DNA from: Morinoia aosen
Lineage: Eukaryota; Arthropoda; Malacostraca; Amphipoda; Talitridae
DNA length: 64,000 bases
Assembly: GCA_030386875.1 (NCBI GenBank)
Contig: CM059557.1
Coordinates: 55,568,514 to 55,632,513 of the forward strand
Direction of reading: 5' to 3'
Position 1 is the first letter of the stretch; every line of letters begins with the position of its first letter. The notes under the pieces are model-generated. The model saw only the letters and a program-made list of their open reading frames with translations, had not been told where the DNA came from and did not search any database. The position numbers and the translations under genes are program-made. Of this stretch, positions 1-64,000 are shown in pieces.

Positions 1-780
1 AAGCCATGCGTGTTATTATACAGTACATGAGCGAACACGTCTGGTCATAGATGACAGCGGTCAATAATGTACGATAAAGCACTTATATAAGTTAATTGCG
101 CTGATTTCAAAAAATAAATTTGCTCCTTGATTATTCAAAGAACGGAACACGTGTGTTTAGTGCATTTATATATCAGGTTTCTCACCCTATTGAACTACAT
201 AAATCTTTCACTCACATTTGAACACCGAACAAATGTATCCACCTTAATAATATACGTCATAAAAAATAATCCTTTTGCGCCCTTGCGGTTGCAAAACTCA
301 TACTTCCAAGCACTTCCAGCCATTCAAAAAATATATATCTACATAATTTAAAATAAGAGAAAATCAATATTTTAAACAAATAAAAAATAGAAAAGACATA
401 ACGCTCATTTTTATACAGGATTGAATTATTCTTCAAATTCAGCGCCGTTGACTTGACGGCTTACAGTAAATAAGTTCAAAGAGTATCAGTGTATTTTGCA
501 CGTTGAAAGTCAATTTACCTAAATGCTCTTGCAAATTGAGGAGTGAGATAAAGGTAGGAATGTTTATTCTGGGCTTATTTACACCCATTTCCGTTGAATA
601 AAGCAGGGCAAGATTGAGTCACCGATTTCTATCACGATAGATGGCATAGTTGACAGGCCTAATTTAGAACAATCTCATTTGTGACAATTTTATTAAAAGC
701 GTACTCATCTTACATCAATAAAATATTTCTTTAGTAAATGTCCTTTTATATTCAGCTTCCTGTGAGCTGGTAGGCACACT
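1..780. other. Non-coding AT-rich flank
   Basis: I see no gene, RNA gene or recognisable repeat here. The only open frame is short and low-complexity, without coding-like composition. The sequence leads directly into the tandem array that begins near position 782. Confidence 0.6.
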
Positions 781-781
781 A

Positions 782-1434
782 TGTACCATTGATCGAATTC
801 CCAGTTCAGTAATCACTGTATTCACTGGTACCATTGATCACTAGTACCATTGATCGAATTCCCAGTTCAGTAATCACTGTATTCACTGGTACCATTGATC
901 ACTAGTACCATTGATCGAATTCCCTGTTCAGTAATCACTGTATTCACTAGTACCATTGATCACTAGTACCATTGATCGAATTCCCTGTTCAGTAATCACT
1001 GTATTCACTGGTACCATTGATCACTAGTACCATTGATCGAATTCCCTGTTCAGTAATCACTGTATTCACTAGTACCATTGATCACTAGTACCATTGATCG
1101 AATTCCCTGTTCAGTAATCACTGTATTCACTAGTACCATTGATCACTAGTACCATTGATCGAATTCCCTGTTCAGTAATCACTGTATTCACTAGTACCAT
1201 TGATCACTAGTACCATTGATCGAATTCCCTGTTCAGTAATCACTGTATTCACTAGTACCATTGATCACTAGTACCATTGATCGAATTTCCTGTTCAGTAA
1301 TCACTGTATTCACTAGTACCATTGATCACTAGTACCATTGATCGAATTTCCTGTTCAGTAATCACTGTATTCACTAGTACCATTGATCACTAGTACCATT
1401 GATCGAATTCCCTGTTCAGTAATCACTGTATTCA
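782..1434. repeat. 61-bp minisatellite, about 11 copies
   Basis: The GATCGAATT core recurs at exactly 61-bp steps (795, 856, 917, 978, 1039, 1100, 1161, 1222, 1283, 1344, 1405). Each unit contains the 16-mer ACTAGTACCATTGATC twice, once before and once inside the copy boundary, so the unit itself arose from a smaller duplication. Variants are graded along the array. The first two copies read CCCAGTTC where later ones read CCCTGTTC. Early junctions read GGTACC where most later ones read AGTACC. Two adjacent late copies (1283, 1344) share GAATTTCC. This pattern fits growth by local unequal exchange. No coding frame is apparent. Confidence 0.97.
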
Positions 1435-2872: not shown

Positions 2873-3028
2873 ACAATTTGGAAAAAAAAATAAACAATTT
2901 ATTTACCACAGGTGATTCAGAGGTAGAATGTTCTAGTACAATGGTCAAATTTGAGTATAGCTACCTGTGGGCCCGAACAAGTTCAGCGACTTCTAGGGCA
3001 TCCTATCATCACGTTATTCTAAGGTGTA
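2873..3028 (-). repeat. Dispersed repeat, copy B
   Basis: Read on the minus strand this matches copies A and D: GCCCTAGAAGTCGCTGAAC, then CACAGGTAGCTATACT, CATTGTACTAGAACATTC and TCACCTGTGGTAAATAAATT, followed by a T-rich tail. Its 5' side also carries CCTTAGAATAACGT, shared only with copy C, so the family's full unit extends further 5' than copies A and D show. Confidence 0.8.
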
Positions 3029-3271
3029 CAATAATGTTTAACCTAGTTCACTTAACCTAGTTTCGCATTAGACTGATCATTGAGATAATTAACTCGATAT
3101 TTTATGCTGTATTTTACAATATAGGTCAAATCGGCTATATTTAACAGTATGTTCGATAAAACTATTCAAGAGCAGACTGAAGATCGGTTACGTTTCCCAA
3201 AGCAAGTTACATTATTACATTATCATTAGTTACATGAAGGAGGCAAGATTTGACATGGTGATCTTACACGA

Positions 3272-6200
3272 CTAGTATTCTGATAGGAAGTGAGACTCAA
3301 GATGTCTTTTGAATACTTTGTGCGAATTACATTTACGGGTCTCCGCTGGTATAGAGTTCCAAGTTTTGGTTCCAACTAAGAGTATAATGTGTTGCGACCG
3401 GGCCTTTGAAAAGTAAGGAATCATGAATTTACTTCTATTTCGGGTTAAATGGTCGTGATGACCAGTTTGCGCAGTCAATAATTGTCTTAGGCTATTGTCG
3501 CCATCATTTCTTAATGTTTTGTAAATGAAATTTCAGATGGAGTTTTTGCAGAGATCCGAAAGTTTAAGTATTTGTAAATTTTTGAAAGAATCATCTGTGT
3601 GAGCATTATATTCTAGGTTTTTTACCGCTCTGACAGCTCTTTTCTGCAGGGTAAAAATTTTGTTGGTTTTATTTTTATCAGTTCCGTGCCATGCTTCTAT
3701 TCCGTATTGCAAGTATGGAGAAATGAGCGTTCGGTAGAGCATTTGTAAAGCTGTTTCAGGCAGAAAATTTTTAACTTTATTTAGGATTACGATGGATTTT
3801 GATAATTTAGAACTAATATGAGTGATGTGCTCTTTTAAGGTCAGATGTTTATCTATTATGATGCCCAGAAACTTACATGAGTTGGTTTCTTCGATTTCAC
3901 CTTCGCCAATTTTAATGCATGGGAGAGATACATCTTTCTTGTATGAGAATGTAATATAATTTGTTTTTTCAATATTAATTCTTATTTTATTAGCTTTGAG
4001 CCACGATGAAACCTTATGAAGTTCATTATTTATACTCTCCACAATTATAGCAGGATTTTGGTTCGGGAGGACCGCAGAAAGCGTACTGTCATCGGCAAAA
4101 AGTATGAATTTGAAGAATGATGTAGATTTTACAATATCATTGATAAAAATAAAAAACAGGAGACGCCCAAGAACAGATCCTTGTGGAACTGCATGGCTTA
4201 TTGTCTGTGGGTCTGATTTTGCGTCGTCAATGACAACGTATTGCTTGCGATTTGTTAGGTATGATCTGAACCAATCATGCGCAATCCCTCGAATGTCATA
4301 ACAGTGTAGTTTCGAGAGTAGTATTTTATGGTCCACACAATCGAATGCTTTTCGAAAGTCAAGAAATACAGAGAAGACAGGCTTTCCTTCATCTATGTTA
4401 GAATAGGGGAATTGTAAATGATTTAATATAGCCTGTGTTTTTGATTTTTTAGAGCGAAAGCCGTATTGTTTATCGTAAAGAAATGATTTTTGTTCAAAAT
4501 AAGAGTACAATTTTTCATACACAATTTAAATTATTCATGAGGGCGTTTTTAGTGGTAGTACGGAGATAGGTCGATAATTGTTTACACAGGTTTTTTCACC
4601 GCTTTTAAAGATAGGGGTTACTCTAGCAACTTTGAGGGAGTTCGGGAAAGTGCCTAGTAAGAGAGACTGGTTAATAATATTTGATATCATTGGGGCTACA
4701 ATGTCAGCAATAACTTTAAGAACTTTTGTCGGAAACGTTTGTAACCCACTCGTTTTATTTTTCATGTTGTTTATGCACGTAATTACATCGGAGGAGTTTG
4801 TAGGCGTAAAGAAAAAGGAGTTGTGTCCTCGAATATGATCCATAAATTCCAGGTGATCAGTAGGTTCACTTGGAATACCATCAGCTATAGTTTTCCCTAC
4901 GTTTACGAAGAAGTTGTTAAAGAGATTAGCAATATCTTCCTTCTCATGGTATTTTACATTACCTTGAATAACATATTCAATTTTCTTTTTATCGGCATTA
5001 TTTGGTTTACAGCAAGAGTTAAGGAGATGCCAAGCCTTTTTAACGTCAGTTTTGAATTGAGTAAACTTGAGCGTAAAGTAGTTCTTTTTTGATGTTCTTA
5101 TCTGGTTTGTTACATAGTTTCTGAATAGGTTATTTGTTTCTCTAGATATTCGCCCTTCGCAAAGAAGGGCTAGGTACGCTTGACGTTTCTTTATATTTAT
5201 CACGATGTCTTTTGTAATCCAGGGCTTTTGTTTATTTTTCGGGGTAACTGTACGAGTTACAATTGGGCAACACTGATTGTATGCGGTCATTATAGTTTCA
5301 GTCAACTTTACTACTGCTTCATCAATGCTCGTAGTATTATTATTTTGTTGAGAGATGTGCAATGTAGGCATTGATTTTTCTAGAACGGTGCGCTTTCTTC
5401 AAGATTTGATTCGTTTATTTTACGGTATGAGTAAGTTTCAGCCCGTGCCTTGGTGCAAGCAAAATAGACATTTTTCTTAATAAGAAAAACTGGGAAGTGA
5501 TCTGATAAGTCTGAAGTAATTATTCCAGCAAGAAAATCACTTGGGTCTGTCATAAAGATATTGTCAAGCAGCGTAGCACACTCTGAGGTTATTCGTGTAG
5601 GCTTTGTAATGATCGGAAGGAAGGATTGAGACTGAAAGGTTGTTAGGAAATTAGCGATTGGTTCATAGATTTCATGTTTCAGTAGATCATAATTGAAGTC
5701 ACCGCATATTATTATGTCATTGTATAAGGACCTGTTGGACATAATAATATAAGGGCCTGAGAAATAATACGAATCAGCTCATTCAGGAAGGATATAGGAC
5801 ACGCTGTAGGAGGCCTATACACCGTTCCAAGCACAATGCGTTTACCATCTCTAGACAGTTCTACGAAGAGTGATTCTATATGATCCTGATTCATTGTTGC
5901 ACATGCTATGGTTCTCGAGTCTATGTGGTTAGATATATATGTGCTGATGCCTCCGCCCCGCTGGTTTCTTCTTAGCGAATGGTAACTATGATAATTTTCA
6001 AATCGAATCATGTCTTTAGTCGAGTCATCTAGTCAGCTTTCAGTGAAGCTAATCACGTCTAGGTTATATTTAAGTTCAGTAATAGTACATTGTATCTCTT
6101 CCAATTTTGGATAGAGTGACCTACAGTTCCAACACAGGAGTGAGAAATCTCGGTCAGTTATTCGTATAGTTTCGTTGAATTTTGATATATTAGTATACCT

Positions 6201-47909: not shown

Positions 47910-48846
47910 CGAGGCCTGTCGAAAAAGTATCCGACCTTAATTTTTCCCGCGCAAAGTAGTGATTCTAAGGCGGCGCCACTGTGCACGGTGGAAGGAGGAA
48001 TCTTAATGCGCATGCTTGACTTTTTTCACCGCATTCACTTGGGCCACTCACTAGCTGGGGGTCGCCAAGTAAGGTGCTGTTCTAAGTGTTTGTCGGATTT
48101 AGTTTTCTTGCAAGATGACTGAACGAATTGAGCAAAGACACTGCATCAAATTTTGTCAAAAGCTTGGTGATTCTCAAATTGAAACAATTCGTAAGATTCA
48201 GCAGGTGTTTGGGGAAGATGCTATGGGTGTAACACAAATTAAGGAGTGGATCAACCGATTCAAAGATGGCCGCACATCAGCGGAGAGTGAGCAGCGTTGT
48301 GGCAGGCCCAAAACTTCTCGGAGTGCAGCTGTTGTTGAGAGGGTGCGAAATTTGGTGATGGCAGATCGTCGTTTGACCGTGCGGGAGATTGCCCAAGAGG
48401 TTGGAGTGAGTAAAGATTCTGCACATGCCATTTTGACCAGACATGTGGACTGCGAACAACTGGCACTTGCATCACGACAACGCGCCCGCACATTCATCCC
48501 ATTTGATCCGCAATTTCTTGGCCAAACATGGAATTACGACCGTTCGCCAACCTCCCTACTCTCCAGACCTGGCTCCTTGCGACTTCTGGTTGTTTCCAAA
48601 ATTGAAGACACCACTGAAAGGATCCCGTTTTGAGAGTAGAGAAGAGATAATGCGGAACGCGACGACAGAGCTGAACACCATTCCAAAAGAAGACTTCCAG
48701 AGGTGTTTCCGGCAGTGGAAGGATCGGTGGGCTAAGTGTGTGGAAGCACAAGGAGCCTACTTTGAAGGGGATTAGGGTCCCAACCCCGTCAGGTTGTTGA
48801 AGTATTTTTTCTGGCCAAAGGTCGGATACTTTTTCGACAGGCCTCG
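47910..48846 (+). mobile_element. Mariner transposon, internally deleted
   Basis: Perfect 29-bp terminal inverted repeats (CGAGGCCTGTCGAAAAAGTA followed by TCCGACCTT; 47,910-47,938 and 48,818-48,846) are flanked by TA on both sides (47,908-47,909 and 48,847-48,848), the mariner target duplication. Length is 937 bp, against about 1.3 kb for a full mariner; the difference equals a deletion in the middle of the transposase gene. It lies wholly inside the Harbinger-type element, so it arrived later. The identical repeats indicate a fairly recent insertion. Confidence 0.97.
48115..48775 (+). pseudogene. Mariner transposase with central deletion and frameshift
   Basis: The N-terminal part starts at the ATG at 48,115 (MTERIEQRHCIKFCQKLG) and contains both helix-turn-helix domains (IKEWINRFKDGRT and LTVREIAQEVGVSKDSAH) joined by GRPKTSRS. 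After about 110 codons the sequence jumps, at about 48,440, to NNWHLHHDNAPAHSSHLI in another frame, continuing through PPYSPDLAPCDFWLFPKLK to a stop at 48,773-48,775. The spacing from HHD to PCD is 34 residues, the mariner D34D pattern. The first catalytic Asp (in the TGDE region) lies in the deleted stretch of about 350 bp. No functional transposase can be made; the ends could still be mobilised in trans. Confidence 0.95.
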
Positions 48847-54000: not shown

Positions 54001-55956
54001 ATCCGCGCATCTGTACTATAAAAATAAGAATGATCCTGCACAGGTCTCATGCTCTCCTACAAGTGTTCGCTATATTAATATTTTTTCAATGGCGGCCCGA
54101 GAAGGATGGCGCACGAGGACCGTGAAGCAGCTGTTCCGTCCTGATTAGAAGGAACCGATAGTCTTAGCCGTGCGTGTGTGGCATACTCCTACATGTGTGA
54201 GAACAACAACTTTTTCTGTTTCAAATCATCTGTTTTATGCACGAATATCCGAACGCTAAGCATAAGTATCTAATTTCGATTTCACTGAAGAAATTTTTTA
54301 CACAGTTTAACCCTTAAAATTTTGATCTCACTGAAGAAATTCTGTACGCAGTTTAACCCTTAACTGTTTCACGTCTCATATACTGGACGCTCAATAAAAA
54401 AGCTCATGTATTTCATTTACGTTACATTTTTCCCAGCCTAGTGCCAATTTCCTCGCTGTTCCGCAGTCGGTAAAAACATGGCGTCTGTGCCAGTGTAATA
54501 ACGGGGGTTCTAATAATGGTAATATGAGCGAGCACTTTTGACGGTTAAGGGTTAATTAACGTTAGTAACTTAGTTTAGGTAACGAGTAAGTTTGCCCTGC
54601 CGTGAACACTTATGTTTTACACTAAAAATTGAGTATCACGCATGGAGGAAATTCACCCAGAAGTACCGTAAGAATAAAATTCATGTGATATATAGATATT
54701 CACTACATAGATCTTGAGCACATATTGTGAATGCCCTCTTTAGCTTAGAACGTGATGCACGTAGACAACTTCAGGCTTGTGTGGGAGTTTGAAATTATAT
54801 GTTTTTCGGGTAGAGCAGAAATAAATTGGGGCACTTGGATTACAGCTACTTAGACGGAAATAACCTTGACTTGAATCTGTTTTCTTCTGGAAGTGATTTT
54901 GAGGTAAAACTTCACACCATCTTGATTTAAAATTTACTTTTCGATGAGCCAATAATGTGGAACGAATCGGTTATGATCAGAAAAGCAGTTGTCCATTTCA
55001 TGAATAGGTCTAACATCATCGACGCTAAGGCTCTTCAGTTTTTTGGGGCTCAAGGCTGTCTTATTCCTTGTTCAGCCTGCATGGTCGCAGTGCAAAACGA
55101 TTAAAATCCCAACATTATGTTTCTAATCTTTCGTAAATCAGAAGTAAAGTTCTAGTACATAAGTAAAGTTAAGAATGTTTAAGGAATGCATACCAAAAAT
55201 ACTCTACTTTATAATTATGCAATTTTGTGCGATAAATTATTGCAGAACGAACAAAGTGTTGGGAATGAAAAGCCTCTCTTGGTGCACAGTTCCTATAATG
55301 CGTATCAAAAGCAGCCCTTTTTGAGCGAATGTTCAATCGCGTTATCGAGTGAAAGACTTTTTGAGGGAAAAATTAATCATGTTATATGGAAATAAGATTT
55401 TTTTGAGAATAATTGATTATGACTTGGAGTGCAGAACTATGTGATCTCTGTCAAATGTTTGAAGGTCGAGGGAAATATTCCAGAGAACTCCCAAGACATT
55501 CGTGCATGGTTGTTTTTATGAACTGCACGTTTTTTTGTGGAATGCTAAGCACATGTTTCGAATAGCCTCCACTGGTGAGTCAAGCATGAGATATCGATAA
55601 AAGTCTCATACTTCACTGTGTAAAAACAATGAAATTTACCTCAATGTAGTTTCATTTTTATTTCTTTTATATTTATTTCCTTCGAAATCAAGCGAAATTA
55701 ATAATACCTACTTTAATAAACGACAGCAGGCAAGACTTGAATTTTTTATCGCGCTCGTGCATATAATTTTAGAAGAAATTTTATCCAAGAAAACCAAAGC
55801 CCTCCTAATGCTTTTCTTTCTAATACCGTCTCTAATTTACTCTAAAATGAATAAAGTTTCCTCTCAGTTCAAGATTAAGATGCCCTTAAATTGATGCGCA
55901 AAAACGGCATTACAGTATTTCAAAGTGTTAGCGTAGTGAAGTTCAAATAGTTTGAG
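54001..55956. other. Probable intron upstream of the IQ exon
   Basis: No coding exon recognised. It contains a 46-bp tandem duplication at 54,274-54,362 (TCACTGAAGAAATT and CAGTTTAACCCTTAA blocks twice). Since the IQ exon begins at a splice acceptor, at least the right part of this stretch should be intron of that gene; how far left the intron runs is unknown. Confidence 0.5.
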
Positions 55957-55983
55957 CTAACGATTTTATTTTTATTTTTTCAG
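55957..55983 (+). other. 3' splice site before the IQ exon
   Basis: Branch-point consensus CTAAC at 55,957-55,961, 22 bases before the AG, then an almost pure T tract and CAG at 55,981-55,983, followed by G. An in-frame TAG at 55,948-55,950 closes the upstream frame, so the reading frame of the following exon must be joined by splicing or start within the exon. Confidence 0.85.
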
Positions 55984-58900
55984 GAAGGCCAGATACCTCC
56001 AGCAGCAGCAGCAGAACAAACTCCAGAGCCATCGTGTACGTCAACATTAGGTCACAGAAACTTCACGTCTCCTGAGAGCAGCATTTGTACAGGAAACGAT
56101 GACGAAAGTCAAAGAAGCCATCGAAGTGCGGAAGGAGATCCTGTCGTAGCGGACCAAGAAGACCAAACAACGGGAAGCACAAATTCAGAAAATGGGGAGC
56201 TGCCTAAAACTGGGACTTTTAAAGAGGTTCTTAGTGAGGCCGGCAACCGGGCCCCTCTGACGCGCCACGACAGAACAAGTCCGCCTCGATGCTTCAAACT
56301 CGAGCAGAATCATTTCTTTGAGAGTGAAAGCCATCGAAGTGTGGACATGGAGCATTTCCGAAAGAACGTGGCGAGCATTTTATTCTTGCAGAGTCACATA
56401 CGGCGATATTTGGCACAAGTTAAATCGAGAGACATAAAACCAAACGCACGGAACCCAGTTGCCTCGAATGCCAAAGAGGTCCAGGACAAGTCACTCTCTT
56501 ACAGCGCTGTCAAAGCCGCGACTAAGATCCAGGCGGCTTTCAGAGGGTTCTTGGTGAGAAAGGAACTGAATTTAAGGCGTGATAAAGGTTTCAAGACACA
56601 GCTAAACGCGAAGAAACTTTCTCCCAGCGAAAGCGGGACAGAAGAAAAGGCGAATGAAAATTTCTATTTCAGTCACTGTGACTCGTTCACTCGCTTGGCG
56701 TCAGCTGTCATTAAAATTCAAGCAATTTTCAGGGGGCGTAGAACTAGAAAATCTCTTGAAATCAGGCTTCCTACTGAGCGAAAAAAATCCAAGGGATCTA
56801 AAAGACGGAAAAAAGGACACAAATTCTCCTCGGTTCAGGAGTCGGCGGCTATTAGAATTCAGAGTATTTTCAGGGGCTATCTAATTAGGAAGAAATTAAA
56901 CAAGAGCCATTATAACAGTAATGGTAATGGAGCTCAGAAGACCTCGGCCCAGACGACGCAGCGAGACACCATCAAATTTGAGCCCCAAAACTTGCTTGGT
57001 CAAGAGCTGGCTGCTGCCTTGGTCATTCAGAGAATTTACAGAGCGTATTTACTTCGTAAAAATCGGTGCCGGAGCCTTCAAAATGAAGGTGTTCCTAATG
57101 GGGGCTTGACATTGGGACTCGAGACAACAAATGAAGCGGCCGAAGAGATTGCAACAAATAATGGGATTTTGAGGAGCACTAACGGCTTCCTGGAAAGTGG
57201 AGAAGTACTCTCAGAAATTCGAAATGACGAAAAAATCGGAGTAATAAAAACTTTGACTTCCTATTCAGCTGTTGAACTACACCGAGACAAAAGTGAGATA
57301 AAATATGGGGCAGGGGGAGACACGAAGGAAATTCAGCAAAATGGAGAAATGCCTCTTGATGATGCACACGGCAGAGACGCAACTGTTGTCAACCCAACCA
57401 CAGTTTTTAGGCAGCCTGAAAATTTACATTCTGTTGAAGTTTCGGAAGCTCCGTTTGATTCGATGGAAGCGACTCGAAGTTTCAATGACGGATCCTTAGA
57501 GTTGAAAATGCTTGAAAAGGCGGCTGTTACTATTCAGTGTCTCTTCAGAGGACATAAAGTCCGGCGCCTCTTTCAACGCAAAGAAAAACTCCTAGGCGAT
57601 GTACGTGGTCCCGATGCAGATTCCTCGCAGGTTTTGGGCACGAAAGTTGGGCAAAGTTTCTCTCCTGGTCATGGCCTAAAAAACCACGGAAAGGAAACAG
57701 AAGAGGCCGTTATTATTCAAAATTTTTATCAGGATAGCGAAGCCGAAAAGAATGAAAATGAAACCATGCGAAAGTTTGGGCAGGAATTTTCTAAAGACCC
57801 GAATGCCGTTGTGGCCGTTGTAAGAATACAGAGAAGTTTCCGATTACATCATCGGCGAGTGCAAAATATTCGAGGTCATGCAAAAAAGTCCAAATTAATG
57901 GAGATAAACTATGACTCTCACTATAAAAATGAAGGCAGAATTACTACCATGGTTGAACTCGAAAACGAAAAGGATTCCGATATTCCAGGGTCATCTTTCG
58001 CGGCCACTTTGTGGGCAGCTCGAGTGATACAAAAATACTACAGAAAATATCGAGAATGCAAAATAGAACGAATGAAGCTCGATATTTCCGTGGAGAAAAA
58101 ACGGCAGGACGTCCAGATAAGGGAGCTTGATATCAAAGAAGCCGTGACGAAGATACAAGCTTGGGTTCGGGGACACTTGGTGAGGAAACGCTTGTGTAGA
58201 AGCAAAGGATTTCTTCAAGAAAATACTGAGCTTTTGAGAGCAGTACTGAAAATTCAGGTACATTTCAGAGCTTATAGAGCACGTAAACGCAAGGTTGAAT
58301 TAGACTACACCCTTGAAATCGACCCTAAGAATTCTGAAGAAAATAAGGTCGTGAACGTTGAAGTTACGGCAAACGAGAATGACGCTCCCTCTAGTGGATT
58401 TGCTGAGAGAGATGATGAGAGATTGAATACAGCTTATGACGGTCAGAACTTAGAGGGTCCTGAATTGAATCTAAAATTATCTGAAAAAAATCAGAGAATT
58501 TCATTGAGCGAAGATAAATTGAAAAGTCAAAATTCAGGTATAATGAAACTTGATGAAGCAGCTCGAGTTCTTCAGATGCATTTTCGCGCATTCAAGAAAA
58601 GGAACAAATTAAGAACTAATCTTTTAGAGACGCATCAAGTTGATGCAGCAGATGATGCCGTGCTTCTGGCTGCAGTTAAAATTCAAGCCACCTTTAGGGG
58701 TTATAGAACTAGGCAAAAGCTAAACATCACGAAAGAAAAAAGTGGTAATTATATTAAAACACCCAATGAAAATCAGATGGGATTACTAACTGCAGTAACT
58801 GTCATTCAGAAATATTATCGCCAGTATGCACGCAAAAAGCACACCTCAAAAGAAATTTCAAGCGATAATTTTACTGGCGCTGAAAGAGGGCAGGCAGGAC

Positions 58901-61380
58901 ACACACAACCACAACATTTGAGAGCATATAAAATAGACAGCAATGAAGACGACTTTGAGATGGGCATTGCGAGTCAACCCGTTACGCAAATGACTTCCCT
59001 CCCTAAGGAGATTAATAAATACAATGAGCCATCTCTCAACGATAATAATTTAGAACAAAATAACGTATTCATGGCTGAGAAATTAGATGCTGAATTAGAT
59101 GTTGAATGCTGGCCGTCCTCTGATGATAGAACTTTGGAAACAGAAAGTGAAAACCAACTTCCTTCTCATCTCAGTGCGGAAGAAAAAAAGAGAGACTGCC
59201 ATTCAGATTTAGTGGACAAAGAAAAAATTTGTGACGGCGTTGTTGTTTCTATGGAGACAGAACGAAATGACGACGGAAATGACTGCTTATACACGAGCAA
59301 CGAAGATTTGAAATCAGAACAAGAAAGAATGCGTGAAACAACTTTCCTGTGCACAACAGCTGAAGGTTCAGATAGTAGCAGCATGAATAAAGACGGAATG
59401 GAAAGTGATGGGAAAATCATTCATGCGCCCATCCTAAAAGGTAGAGACAGCGACACTTTTATGAAAGAAGGAGAATCCAATGCAGGAAGTTCGGATCAAA
59501 TGCTCTGTTCGCAAGCTGCTGAAAGTGTAAACACTCATTTCACAAGAGCTCATCTCACTGATTTGAGGCAAGAGCAGGCAGCACAGGTGTTGCAAGCCTA
59601 TTTTAGAAGGCTTATAGCGAGGAAAAACCTTCAAAGCAGACGGGCGCACCACAATGAGAATGCGCCCGGTGCAAACGCTCGCAGCCCCGCGTTTGATCAC
59701 GAAATGGTGAAAGCCGTAGCTCTGATTCAGAAGTGTTATCGTGCGTATAAAAAACGGAAATCTGGCTCTCAAGAATCTGGGAAAAGCGAAAGTTTTCAGG
59801 ATGAGTCAGTTTTGCGTTCAGTGATCAAAATTCAGGCCGTTTTCAGAGGATATAAATGCAGGAAAATGGCTTGTAAAAAACAGTTAATTCACGGAGGAAA
59901 AGCAAAATTAGGTTGTGAGGAAACAAAGATTCTTCGAGCTGTAACTTTACTTCAAAAGTTCGCTCGAGGATTTTTGACTCGTAAAAGACTTAAATCTTGC
60001 GCAAAAACTGATGAAAATCAATTTTCAGGGTGCGCTCTAAGGAAGAACTGTGAAATTGTGCGAAATGTAAGCAAAATTCAAAAACAATGCGGAAAGTACA
60101 AATTCAAGAAGCTTTTTAATGACGAAAATTTCGCTGGCAGTTATCCTGGCGCTCCTGATGAGTCTGAACAGCAGGCTGTATCTCCTATTGAAACTTGTGT
60201 TCTTCGCCCTGAAGCCAAGTGCAATGTTACAGAAGAGTCGTTAGGGCTTGAGAATTTGAACCTTTCCGAAGAAGCCATCAAAGCAGTGATCGCAATTCAG
60301 GCCTGCATACGAGGATGGCTGGTCAGAAAACGGAATGGAAAAGGTGTTAGGAAAAGAAGTAACTATGAGGGGGAGAAATTGCTTGCTCATGATGCTCGCG
60401 TTCTGGAATCGGTCCTGATGTTGCAGGCGTGTTGCAGAGGCTTCATGGTTAGAAAGAAGCTCATGGCTTCTGGATTTGCGACGACAATAAACAGAAAAAA
60501 GTTGCAGGACGAGATTGTAAAGGATATCTCCCGTAATGATCACCAAATTGTAAAGTCAGTAACTACTATACAAGCCTACTTCAGAGGACACTTGACTCGA
60601 AAAAAACTTAGAACTTCTCAATCGAAAATTGGAAGCCATGAAAATGATTCGCCAAAAATAAGGGATGGAGAAATTGCTGATTGCAATTACCAAATGGTGC
60701 AATCAATCATCATCATTCAGGCGTACTGTAGAGGATTTTTGGCTAGAAAAAGACTACAATCTCTTCGTTTGGAACTCGAAAAAGGCAAGAATCAAGTTGG
60801 AGGAGTTCATGAGAGTGAGGACCTCTCTCATGATGAACGTATTATAAAATCAGTTACTATCATTCAGGCATATTTCCGGGGCTTCCACGTCAGGAAAAAA
60901 TTAAGAGAGTCTCGACCGATTTCAAAAATTGACCAAAGCTCCGTAATATCGGTGAAGGAGAGTGAAATTGTACGCTACGATTATCGAATGGTCAGGGCAG
61001 TCACAAAAATTCAAGCATATTTCAGAGGATACTTGGCGAGGAAAAGAATGAAAGAGTCGCAGCCAGAATTGGGAAACTTTGAATGTTACGAACAGAAAAG
61101 AAGCGCTGATCAGGAGGGAAATTATGATGATTGCTTTGTAAAATCGGTCACAATCATTCAGGCGTATTTCAGAGGGCATATGGCACGGAAGAAAATGAAA
61201 GCCTCAACTGATGTAAACGAGAATTATGAGAAAACTAAAGTGGATGTGTCTGGCACCAAAACCCCATTTTTCGATGACCGTGTAATTAAATCTGTCATTA
61301 AACTCCAGGCTTTTTTCCGAGGGCATCTCGCTAGAAAAAAAATCAAAGCACACAATTTGTTAATCAAAGCACAAAATTGA
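55984..61380 (+). CDS. Large multi-IQ-motif (calmodulin-binding type) protein, 3'-terminal exon
   Basis: The frame is open for 1,799 codons without interruption. The first ATG is at 56,341 (1,679 residues), but 119 in-frame codons precede it back to a splice acceptor, so the N-terminus probably lies in earlier exons. About 26 IQ-type motifs are visible. Counting from that ATG, their hydrophobic-Gln cores are near residues 17 (weak), 63, 126, 173, 229, 398, 496, 563, 605, 638, 744, 781, 822, 1084, 1129, 1164, 1204, 1246 (weak), 1319, 1361, 1410, 1459, 1508, 1557, 1606 and 1655. Many fit IQxxxRGxxxRK (IQAAFRGFLVRK, IQAYFRGHLTRKK). An acidic, Ser-rich stretch near 845-1075 has none. IQ motifs bind calmodulin or related EF-hand proteins, often without calcium. 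Spacing of 35-50 residues in most of the array differs from the tighter arrays of ASPM and myosins; no motor, calponin-homology or other domain is seen. It loosely resembles neuromodulin/igloo-type IQ proteins, but orthology is unproven. Confidence 0.92.
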   Translation, partial: EGQIPPAAAAEQTPEPSCTSTLGHRNFTSPESSICTGNDDESQRSHRSAEGDPVVADQEDQTTGSTNSENGELPKTGTFKEVLSEAGNRAPLTRHDRTSPPRCFKLEQNHFFESESHRSVDMEHFRKNVASILFLQSHIRRYLAQVKSRDIKPNARNPVASNAKEVQDKSLSYSAVKAATKIQAAFRGFLVRKELNLRRDKGFKTQLNAKKLSPSESGTEEKANENFYFSHCDSFTRLASAVIKIQAIFRGRRTRKSLEIRLPTERKKSKGSKRRKKGHKFSSVQESAAIRIQSIFRGYLIRKKLNKSHYNSNGNGAQKTSAQTTQRDTIKFEPQNLLGQELAAALVIQRIYRAYLLRKNRCRSLQNEGVPNGGLTLGLETTNEAAEEIATNNGILRSTNGFLESGEVLSEIRNDEKIGVIKTLTSYSAVELHRDKSEIKYGAGGDTKEIQQNGEMPLDDAHGRDATVVNPTTVFRQPENLHSVEVSEAPFDSMEATRSFNDGSLELKMLEKAAVTIQCLFRGHKVRRLFQRKEKLLGDVRGPDADSSQVLGTKVGQSFSPGHGLKNHGKETEEAVIIQNFYQDSEAEKNENETMRKFGQEFSKDPNAVVAVVRIQRSFRLHHRRVQNIRGHAKKSKLMEINYDSHYKNEGRITTMVELENEKDSDIPGSSFAATLWAARVIQKYYRKYRECKIERMKLDISVEKKRQDVQIRELDIKEAVTKIQAWVRGHLVRKRLCRSKGFLQENTELLRAVLKIQVHFRAYRARKRKVELDYTLEIDPKNSEENKVVNVEVTANENDAPSSGFAERDDERLNTAYDGQNLEGPELNLKLSEKNQRISLSEDKLKSQNSGIMKLDEAARVLQMHFRAFKKRNKLRTNLLETHQVDAADDAVLLAAVKIQATFRGYRTRQKLNITKEKSGNYIKTPNENQMGLLTAVTVIQKYYRQYARKKHTSKEISSDNFTGAERGQAGHTQPQHLRAYKIDSNEDDFEMGIASQPVTQMTSLPKEINKYNEPSLNDNNLEQNNVFMAEKLDAELDVECWPSSDDRTLETESENQLPSHLSAEEKKRDCHSDLVDKEKICDGVVVSMETERNDDGNDCLYTSNEDLKSEQERMRETTFLCTTAEGSDSSSMNKDGMESDGKIIHAPILKGRDSDTFMKEGESNAGSSDQMLCSQAAESVNTHFTRAHLTDLRQEQAAQVLQAYFRRLIARKNLQSRRAHHNENAPGANARSPAFDHEMVKAVALIQKCYRAYKKRKSGSQESGKSESFQDESVLRSVIKIQAVFRGYKCRKMACKKQLIHGGKAKLGCEETKILRAVTLLQKFARGFLTRKRLKSCAKTDENQFSGCALRKNCEIVRNVSKIQKQCGKYKFKKLFNDENFAGSYPGAPDESEQQAVSPIETCVLRPEAKCNVTEESLGLENLNLSEEAIKAVIAIQACIRGWLVRKRNGKGVRKRSNYEGEKLLAHDARVLESVLMLQACCRGFMVRKKLMASGFATTINRKKLQDEIVKDISRNDHQIVKSVTTIQAYFRGHLTRKKLRTSQSKIGSHENDSPKIRDGEIADCNYQMVQSIIIIQAYCRGFLARKRLQSLRLELEKGKNQVGGVHESEDLSHDERIIKSVTIIQAYFRGFHVRKKLRESRPISKIDQSSVISVKESEIVRYDYRMVRAVTKIQAYFRGYLARKRMKESQPELGNFECYEQKRSADQEGNYDDCFVKSVTIIQAYFRGHMARKKMKASTDVNENYEKTKVDVSGTKTPFFDDRVIKSVIKLQAFFRGHLARKKIKAHNLLIKAQN
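60385..61363 (+). repeat. Seven 147-bp (49-codon) IQ repeats within the CDS
   Basis: The codon four before each IQ core falls at 60,406, 60,553, 60,700, 60,847, 60,994, 61,141 and 61,288, every interval being exactly 147 bp. Each unit reads roughly acidic lead-in, D-x-R-x-V, KSVTIIQAYFRGHLARKK, then a variable Ser/Glu-rich linker. Core segments are similar at the protein level while linkers have diverged, yet no indel has accumulated. The preceding IQ motif (60,280) is 126 bp away, outside the regular array. Confidence 0.95.
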
Positions 61381-61517: not shown

Positions 61518-61523
61518 AATAAA
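61518..61523 (+). promoter_or_regulatory. Polyadenylation signal AATAAA of the IQ gene
   Basis: First AATAAA after the stop codon, giving a 3' UTR of about 150 bases. Two further AATAAA hexamers lie in the 21-bp duplication at 61,761-61,802. Confidence 0.7.
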
Positions 61524-62104: not shown

Positions 62105-62730
62105 TACTTTGACGATAGTTTTAGACGCTGAAAACTAGTGGTGGTTGTTTGAATATTTACTCATATTGCATAAAATCACGCATTAAAATAACATGAAACA
62201 CTGCTAGCGTAGATTAAATTTTGAAATTTCAATGTTTGAAGTATTTTCGAAAGACAGATTTGCTCAGATTTAAAACTTTTCCAATTTGATATTATTTTCT
62301 GTGAGCTTAAACAGAAATGTCATTGATTTTCAATAGATTGCGAATCAGAGTAGATCACCAAATAGTTAAAAACGAGTATGCGTTCCAACTAAATAGAGAT
62401 CAACGCTTTATAGGAGACGAGTAGGTTCACGTAGGTTCCTCCGCCTATTAAAATTGTCGGAATCCCACGCAGTTTGAATAAATTACCTTACATACAGGCG
62501 TGAAATATATAGCATAGGTGCAGGTATATAACAGGAAACGAGGATAGGTAGTACGCAAATGATGGCACTCTGACAACTCGATACGTAGAAGCAAGCTAAC
62601 TAGTGAGGGGACAATGGCAATACTAGTCACTAAATAACATGAGTATCATAGTAGTACTTATAGGGCGATTCTTAGGGAATCTTATTCTCAAAATAAAAAG
62701 AAGAACAAACGTTATGAAGAACATTTATTG

Positions 62731-62771
62731 TAGCAAACGTTTCGGAATACGAGTTATTCCATCATCAGTGC
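62731..62771 (-). ncRNA. Hammerhead-ribozyme-like fold in PLE terminal repeat
   Basis: Minus strand: AGCA, CTGATGA, T, GGAATA-ACTCG-TATTCC, GAAACGTT, TGCT. AGCA pairs perfectly with TGCT (stem I). GGAATA pairs perfectly with TATTCC (stem II). ACGT is self-complementary, as in the short stem III of PLE hammerheads that act as dimers. The invariant CUGANGA and GAAA elements are present, and a cleavage site would follow ACGUU. The single extra U before stem II departs from the standard core. Confidence 0.55.
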
Positions 62772-62935
62772 TGGAAGAAATGAAAAGTAATTTTCAGTCA
62801 TGCATAAAACGGATGTCTGAATAGAAATACCAAGCAAAAAAAAAACGCAAAAAATAAAAATAAATTCTTTTCTACCGACTAGAATACCACACTTAAGCGT
62901 TTAGGCAATATACACGGTACATACAGGCGTACATA

Positions 62936-63030
62936 ACCATACACACACAACACACTCACACACCTACACATTTATATATATACACACATACACACATGCA
63001 CTACATGCACACACACCAAGCACACCTCAG
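62936..63030. repeat. CA/TA-rich simple repeat
   Basis: ACACACAACACACTCACACA and following CACATACACACATGCAC-type sequence form an interrupted CA microsatellite inside the PLE 3' region. Confidence 0.9.
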
Positions 63031-63041
63031 CATAACGCAAG

Positions 63042-63189
63042 TTATGAAGTAGGGGCTACAAATAATTTTGTCGCGCTGAAATCGTTATTAAGTGAAGGTT
63101 TATTTGTGAAAATATAAAGAGATTCTAGAATACGGAGGTCTTGTTCATTAAAGGCTTTGCATAGAATAGAAAAATTTGACATTTTGAAG
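63042..63189 (-). pseudogene. PLE C-terminal tail, inverted copy
   Basis: Minus-strand frame with FKMSNFSILCKAFNEQDLRI then LESLYIFTNKPSLNNDFSA. It matches the plus-strand tail at about 63,880-64,000, apart from small changes. Only the C-terminal segment after the endonuclease is present. Confidence 0.85.
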
Positions 63190-64000
63190 GGTGATTGGAA
63201 TGGTGAAATACCTTTATTAGATGTCATGGTATGCAAGTCTGATACTAAGTTTATTTCTTCAGTTATAGAAAGCCCACATTTACCGGTCTTTGTACAAATT
63301 ATTTTAGCTGTGTCTACAAAGGTTATATTAAATCGTGTGTGAAAACTTTATTACATAGGGCCTATTGCATCTCGAGCACGTACCAAATATTACACAATGA
63401 ATTAGAATATCTGCAAAAAATGCTTATGCGTAATAATTATCCAAAATATCTTGTTAATCAAATAGTCAGAAAATTTCTAGATAATAAATTTTTCCCCCCC
63501 CCCTCCTGTAACCTTGACCGTACCGAAACAGAAAATATTTATTGGCCTTCCATTCCTAGGTTACCTGAACAGTGATTTTCAACGAGAGTGTCTAGTCCTT
63601 GTGCGAGCCTTCTTTACAGCGGTTGACGTTCATGTTTATTATAAGAATACTTTTAAGATATCGTATTTTTTAACAGGAAAGAGCAACAGGATGAGTGCCT
63701 GGAAAGTTTTTGTTTATGTTTGTATGTTTGTGATTGCTGCCAGCAATCGTACGTTGGAAGCACTACCCTCCAACTATTTATCCGTCACAGCCACATTCAG
63801 GTTTTTCTCATATTACCGGCCGCCCATCTGCTTGTCCCCCTCAGTCCGCCATTTGAAACCATTGCGATAGTTCTAATCACCCTTTCAAAACGTCAAATTT
63901 TTCGATTCTGTGCAAAGCATTTAATGAACAAGACCGTATTCTAGAATCTCTTTATATATATTCACAAATAAACCTTCACTTAATAACGGTTTCAGCGCAA
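63190..64000 (+). pseudogene. PLE reverse transcriptase C-terminus and GIY-YIG endonuclease, frameshifted
   Basis: In order: NGEIPLLDVMVCKSDTKFIS (the LPFLDV block after the RT catalytic core), then, after a one-frame shift near 63,262, YRKPTFTGLCTNYFSCVYKG and KTLLHRAYCISSTYQ. A connector with GLPFLGYLNSDFQRE follows near 63,542, then the endonuclease start CDCCQQSYVGSTTLQLFIRH near 63,725-63,785, then, in another frame, HPFKTSNFSILCKAFNEQD and ILESLYIYSQ. CxxC and YVGST are retained. Frameshifts and stops make it non-functional; the sequence leaves the window before any 3' UTR. Confidence 0.88.

Follow-up and report, generated by a model that had tools for sequence, protein, structure and literature searches.

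Even spacing of seven C-terminal IQ units in a predicted multi-IQ protein of Morinoia aosen probably reflects an old tandem duplication

The last seven IQ motifs encoded by a gene of the amphipod Morinoia aosen follow each other at intervals of exactly 147 bp, and this even spacing is probably explained by descent from an old tandem duplication that has acquired few in-frame indels. The gene was detected in a stretch of 64,000 nucleotides (GCA_030386875.1, CM059557.1, positions 55,568,514 to 55,632,513), hereafter called the window, which is located on contig C2 of a genome assembly comprising 1.99 Gb in 29 contigs. The analysis shows how far descent alone explains exact repeat spacing once the local in-frame indel rate has been measured, and it gives a clear number for orthologues to beat.

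The seven units are located at the C-terminal end of an open frame of 1,809 codons on the plus strand (55951-61380) that we take to be the final coding exon of a protein with multiple IQ motifs. The open frame begins just 5' of a polypyrimidine-AG acceptor, and the first exon base after this acceptor, as read from the sequence, is position 55984, giving a predicted exon of 55984..61380 (+) that ends with the stop codon TGA at 61378-61380. A candidate polyadenylation signal AATAAA is present approximately 140 bp 3' of the stop codon (61518..61523, +). A search of the whole frame with the Pfam profile PF00612 yielded a score of 321.4 bits, above the Pfam cut-off, and 21 IQ stretches over positions 56341-61377. 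The profile scan placed a presumably older, irregularly spaced IQ series at 56356..60345 (+), with intervals of 47, 63, 47, 225, 98, 109, 33, 106, 37, 303, 45, 35, 40 and 115 residues, followed by an interval of 42 residues directly before the seven-unit array. The upstream intervals thus span 33-303 residues, and none of them equals 49, even when three further degenerate IQs (codons 358, 951 and 1375) that split some of the long intervals are considered. The exactly spaced run is the best part of a longer, irregular IQ series. No Pfam match to a calponin-homology domain was obtained in the plus-strand frames of positions 26650-56351.

The sequence surrounding the gene carries remnants of mobile elements, including a LINE-type reverse transcriptase recognized by eye in the translated frames and a broken mariner-type transposase at about 48103-48650 whose HTH_48 and DDE_3 parts lie in different frames. 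Two repeat copies that are LINE-type by eye (window 2873-5302 and L013:5113-7542) are 94.6% identical over 2.4 kb, which suggests fairly recent activity. Just downstream of the IQ gene, a large inverted repeat involves positions ~62685-64000 and L013:1-388, the latter matching window positions 63070-62685 at 92.8%; it is perhaps a foldback DNA transposon. Additionally, a 61-bp tandem repeat of 10.8 copies with 98% matches was found at window positions 777-1434, and a long Ala/Glu/Asp repeat is encoded on the plus strand of L012 (~4400-6100), about 45 kb upstream of the window.

The IQ motifs of the seven units have their first codons at positions 60421, 60568, 60715, 60862, 61009, 61156 and 61303, corresponding to 60421 + 147 x n with n = 0-6, and all six intervals measure exactly 147 bp or 49 residues, which confirms the periodicity described in the initial annotation. 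PF00612 recognized seven stretches over 60379-61377 with an E-value of 1.2e-46. Each unit is composed of a 27-residue IQ core (alignment columns 4-30) and a 22-residue linker (columns 31-52). On the plus strand, the six complete units occupy positions 60379..60525, 60526..60672, 60673..60819, 60820..60966, 60967..61113 and 61114..61260, and the truncated unit 7 (61261..61377) consists of the core and a short tail, followed by the stop. By eye, a 21-bp direct repeat of about 1.9 copies was recognized in the coding tail 3' of the last IQ (61341..61379, +); it is absent from the output of Tandem Repeats Finder at score 50 and is probably a small in-frame duplication of seven residues. The periodicity is equally apparent from the self-similarity of the array, since the identity at codon lags of 49, 98 and 147 amounts to 0.50, 0.50 and 0.53, compared with 0.305 at the next best lag and a mean of 0.27 across lags 20-159, and no other strong lags were seen. 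The highest lag identity in the upstream codons 180-1440 is just 0.296. The possibility that the IQ at 60295 marks an eighth copy shortened by seven residues was rejected, as the respective alignments are ambiguous. Likewise, a hidden IQ inside the linkers was considered, 49 being close to 23 + 27, and the profile scan detected none above 4 bits between the IQs of the array.

The linkers are strongly diverged, as the initial annotation had stated, with 35.1% nucleotide identity and a pooled dN of 1.28 compared with 0.35 in the cores, but they are not unrelated. An in-register, gapless comparison of the six linkers (15 pairs) yielded 347 identical bases, compared with an expectation of 278.8 (SD 13.5); the resulting identity of 0.351 compares with 0.282 in codon shuffles (z 5.1), and none of 20,000 shuffles was as high. 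This result does not depend on a single linker, as z remains at 3.5-5.1 when any one of the six is dropped. Linkers trimmed to columns 33-48 still gave 0.364 versus 0.312 (p 0.0006), with the left half being significant alone (p 0.003) and the right half (columns 41-48) non-significant (p 0.075). Apart from this right half taken alone, the units are similar along their whole length including the linkers, as is expected of a duplication origin. Register 0 was the best of 25 gapless codon shifts, and the gain obtained by allowing gaps was 14.8, below the 23.1 found in shuffles, which does not suggest hidden compensating indels. Linkers separated by three units show the highest identity (0.409), but the same value is attained in 13% of relabellings, and a three-unit block duplication was rejected.

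With respect to codon positions, linker identity is strongest at position 1 (0.403 versus 0.282), followed by position 2 (0.339 versus 0.303, p 0.07) and position 3 (0.309 versus 0.261, p 0.03). The greater likeness at positions 1 and 2 than at position 3 (0.40, 0.34, 0.31) suggests that the linkers are not free of selection, and the difference in dN indicates that the cores are conserved at the protein level and the linkers little. In the trimmed linkers, position 3 is non-significant (0.292 versus 0.269, p 0.22), a test that, taken strictly, leaves room for convergence of the linkers. The 22 codons following 17 upstream IQs displayed a weak in-register signal (0.288 versus 0.276, p 0.008) that may represent the edge of the core, and no signal was detected between the array linkers and these upstream flanks (0.285 versus 0.280, p 0.14). 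Since the linkers are above chance in register, the spacing is most simply understood as the legacy of one duplicated 147-bp ancestor and not as something that each unit reached separately.

The duplication appears to be old. Synonymous sites are saturated, with a pooled pS of 0.766 in the cores and 0.783 in the linkers, and the units are 40-60% identical in a comparison in which unit 7 extends beyond its stop. They are thus not the recent near-identical copies that the initial annotation had named as evidence against its view, and the low synonymous divergence of a recently homogenised repeat was not found. Continuing homogenisation, which had also been proposed and which would maintain equal unit lengths through gene conversion or unequal crossing-over, is consequently very improbable. 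The observations in its favour are an excess of identical codons at shared residues (0.431 versus 0.371 expected from codon usage) that is marginal at p 0.048, and the similarity of the linkers of units 2 and 5, which are the closest pair with 33 of 66 bases. Neighbouring units, however, are no more similar than distant ones, and a different picture is offered by a young array elsewhere in the genome: in the ASPM-like frame described below, a block of 11 units of 27 residues has a mean nucleotide identity of 90.5% (lowest pair 71.6%), evidently the result of a recent and local expansion of the IQ domain. Within its own gene, the seven-unit array is nevertheless probably the youngest part, because its cores are 52% mutually identical compared with 30% among 15 upstream cores, a likeness that exceeds every one of 20,000 random sets of seven drawn from the 24 cores. 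A tree of the 24 cores (27 columns), in which 14 of 21 inner branches are unresolved, leaves the array ungrouped with six label changes, a number as low as that in 281 of 500 shuffles.

The in-frame indel rate of this genome was calibrated with a sample of 324 kb in 27 sequences, comprising the window and 26 stretches of 10 kb. Dispersed repeats were paired if their alignment spanned 150 bases or more and their identity did not exceed 97%, and pairs less than 5 kb apart on the same sequence were excluded. The 92 pairs contained 4309 mismatches and 427 gaps, of which 52 had a length divisible by three, which corresponds to 0.0121 in-frame indels per mismatch (bootstrap 0.0088-0.0155), the pairs being non-independent as they come from few repeat families. 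Two alternative gap costs lowered the rate to 0.0065 and 0.0096. An earlier calibration set of 330 pairs was discarded, since it contained tandem arrays, including an Ala/Glu repeat in L012, that inflated the rate; in one identity band, it reached as much as 0.076 multiple-of-three gaps for each mismatch. The corrected linker distance of 1.68 substitutions per site between pairs translates into approximately 333 accepted substitutions across the six linkers on a star tree. Accordingly, 4.0 in-frame indels are expected on this tree (P of none 0.018), 2.0 on a tree of half that length (0.13) and 1.3 on one of a third (0.27); a rate of 0.008 combined with the shortest tree gives 0.9 (0.42). On central assumptions, with about one to four events expected, the absence of in-frame indels is only mildly unexpected, and the statement that diverged tandem repeats normally collect them was too strong. 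With saturated synonymous sites, neutral substitutions could exceed 333, and selection against changes of length would then gain in favour; 495 neutral substitutions lead to 6.0 expected in-frame indels (P of none 0.0025), and in the extreme case of 495 substitutions and a rate of 0.018 to 8.9 (0.0001).

These longer trees form part of the case for spacing selection, the alternative in which a 49-residue step fixes the distances between bound calmodulin or other EF-hand partners and linker indels are removed. It would also account for the lack of net length change in six of six intervals despite saturated synonymous divergence, and it is in agreement with the ASPM-like gene of the same genome, where 52 of 53 intervals are exactly 23 or 27 residues and where IQ arrays can evidently be length-constrained; that 49 is a whole number of heptads is a matter of arithmetic only. 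If true, this would make the protein an IQ scaffold in which flexible linkers serve to measure distance. On the other hand, the upstream intervals of the same exon include none of 49, and even spacing is therefore not needed throughout the protein. Moreover, proline or at least two glycines are present in five of the six linkers, unlike a rigid rod, an interval of 42 residues adjoins the array, and the probable 7-residue duplication follows the last IQ. Selection on linker length, as suggested in the initial annotation, is possible, but it is not required by the expected number of indels, and we regard it as a conceivable but rather unlikely addition to descent. A narrower version, in which the seven C-terminal units act as a length-constrained calmodulin ruler with 22-residue linkers that vary in sequence and not in length and with fixed 49-residue steps, is more doubtful still, and with it goes the proposal that the array would constitute a spacing class distinct from that of myosins, ASPM and IQ67 proteins, whose IQ arrays are contiguous. 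A constraint at the DNA level tied to nucleosome length, finally, is scarcely credible: it has nothing beyond the number 147, which follows from the coding unit as 3 x 49, whereas linker conservation peaks at codon position 1, a protein-level signal, and codons 180-1440 of the same frame lack such a lag.

In the preferred explanation by descent, tandem duplication at the 3' terminus of the gene would have copied a segment of 147 bp (49 codons) from an exon that already encoded multiple IQs, until seven units were present. The 27-residue cores would then have been held by selection for binding of calmodulin or a related EF-hand light chain while the 22-residue linkers drifted. The exact period would have been carried over from the founding unit. 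Its survival would be explained by the low number of in-frame indels that this genome acquires for each substitution, and the sequence or length of the linkers may in addition have been under weak purifying selection. The protein would most likely represent a multivalent scaffold for calmodulin or light chains, resembling beads on a string.

Among solved structures, the array profile matched 18 distinct sequences at E-values up to 0.01, including myosins; the best matches were a CFAP91-domain protein, RSP23, FAP305, Sp17, DRC9/10, IQCG and neuromodulin/neurogranin. The matches to IQ proteins of axonemes and sperm are centred on the IQ core, with some of them extending to unit position 38-44, and a separate search yielded one match, an RSP23 chain (E 6e-5). 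Membership in the Sp17-like proteins, which combine RIIa and IQ domains, was rejected, as the four RIIa matches in the genome include none on contig C2, a search that could miss an intron-split domain. A home-made RIIa consensus scored at best 19 in the window, in a minus-strand stretch with a stop, versus 17 in one shuffled control, and 27 in a low-complexity stretch of L012. Pattern matches to the array were obtained in the viral contig and genome contig sets, none of which was confirmed as a relative, and literature searches with other aims returned no 49-residue IQ repeat.

In myosin lever arms, calmodulin or light chains are bound by tandem IQs, which are contiguous with a short period; the profile matches between myosins and the array are weak, and no motor domain was matched in the plus-strand frames scanned (26650-56351). 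In the plant IQ67 domain of IQD proteins, several IQ motifs are precisely spaced; the domain, with three motifs and separators of 11 and 15 residues, is described as plant-specific (PMC1368998), and the array differs in lacking these separators. The closest parallel in spacing was met through two weak matches of the array search (E 0.04 and 0.10), which led to a second IQ-rich frame on contig C15 of the same genome (20 Pfam stretches; L038:696-5000, minus strand, within G000:C15:48517300-48522300). We take this frame to be ASPM-like from its IQ pattern, and its 53 IQ intervals comprise 26 of 23 residues, 26 of 27 and one of 50. The number of IQ repeats in ASPM varies between species (PMC374243). 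As the 40 older units of the ASPM-like frame share a mean nucleotide identity of 39%, both arrays are large, exon-coded IQ series with exact spacing despite strong divergence, and such spacing is ordinary at deep divergence where IQs abut and not unusual in itself. The gene in the window does not show the 23/27-residue periods of ASPM: ASPM-like units measure 23 or 27 residues without an extra linker, whereas the array described here combines 27 and 22 residues to 49, and only the last seven IQ units of the gene are regular.
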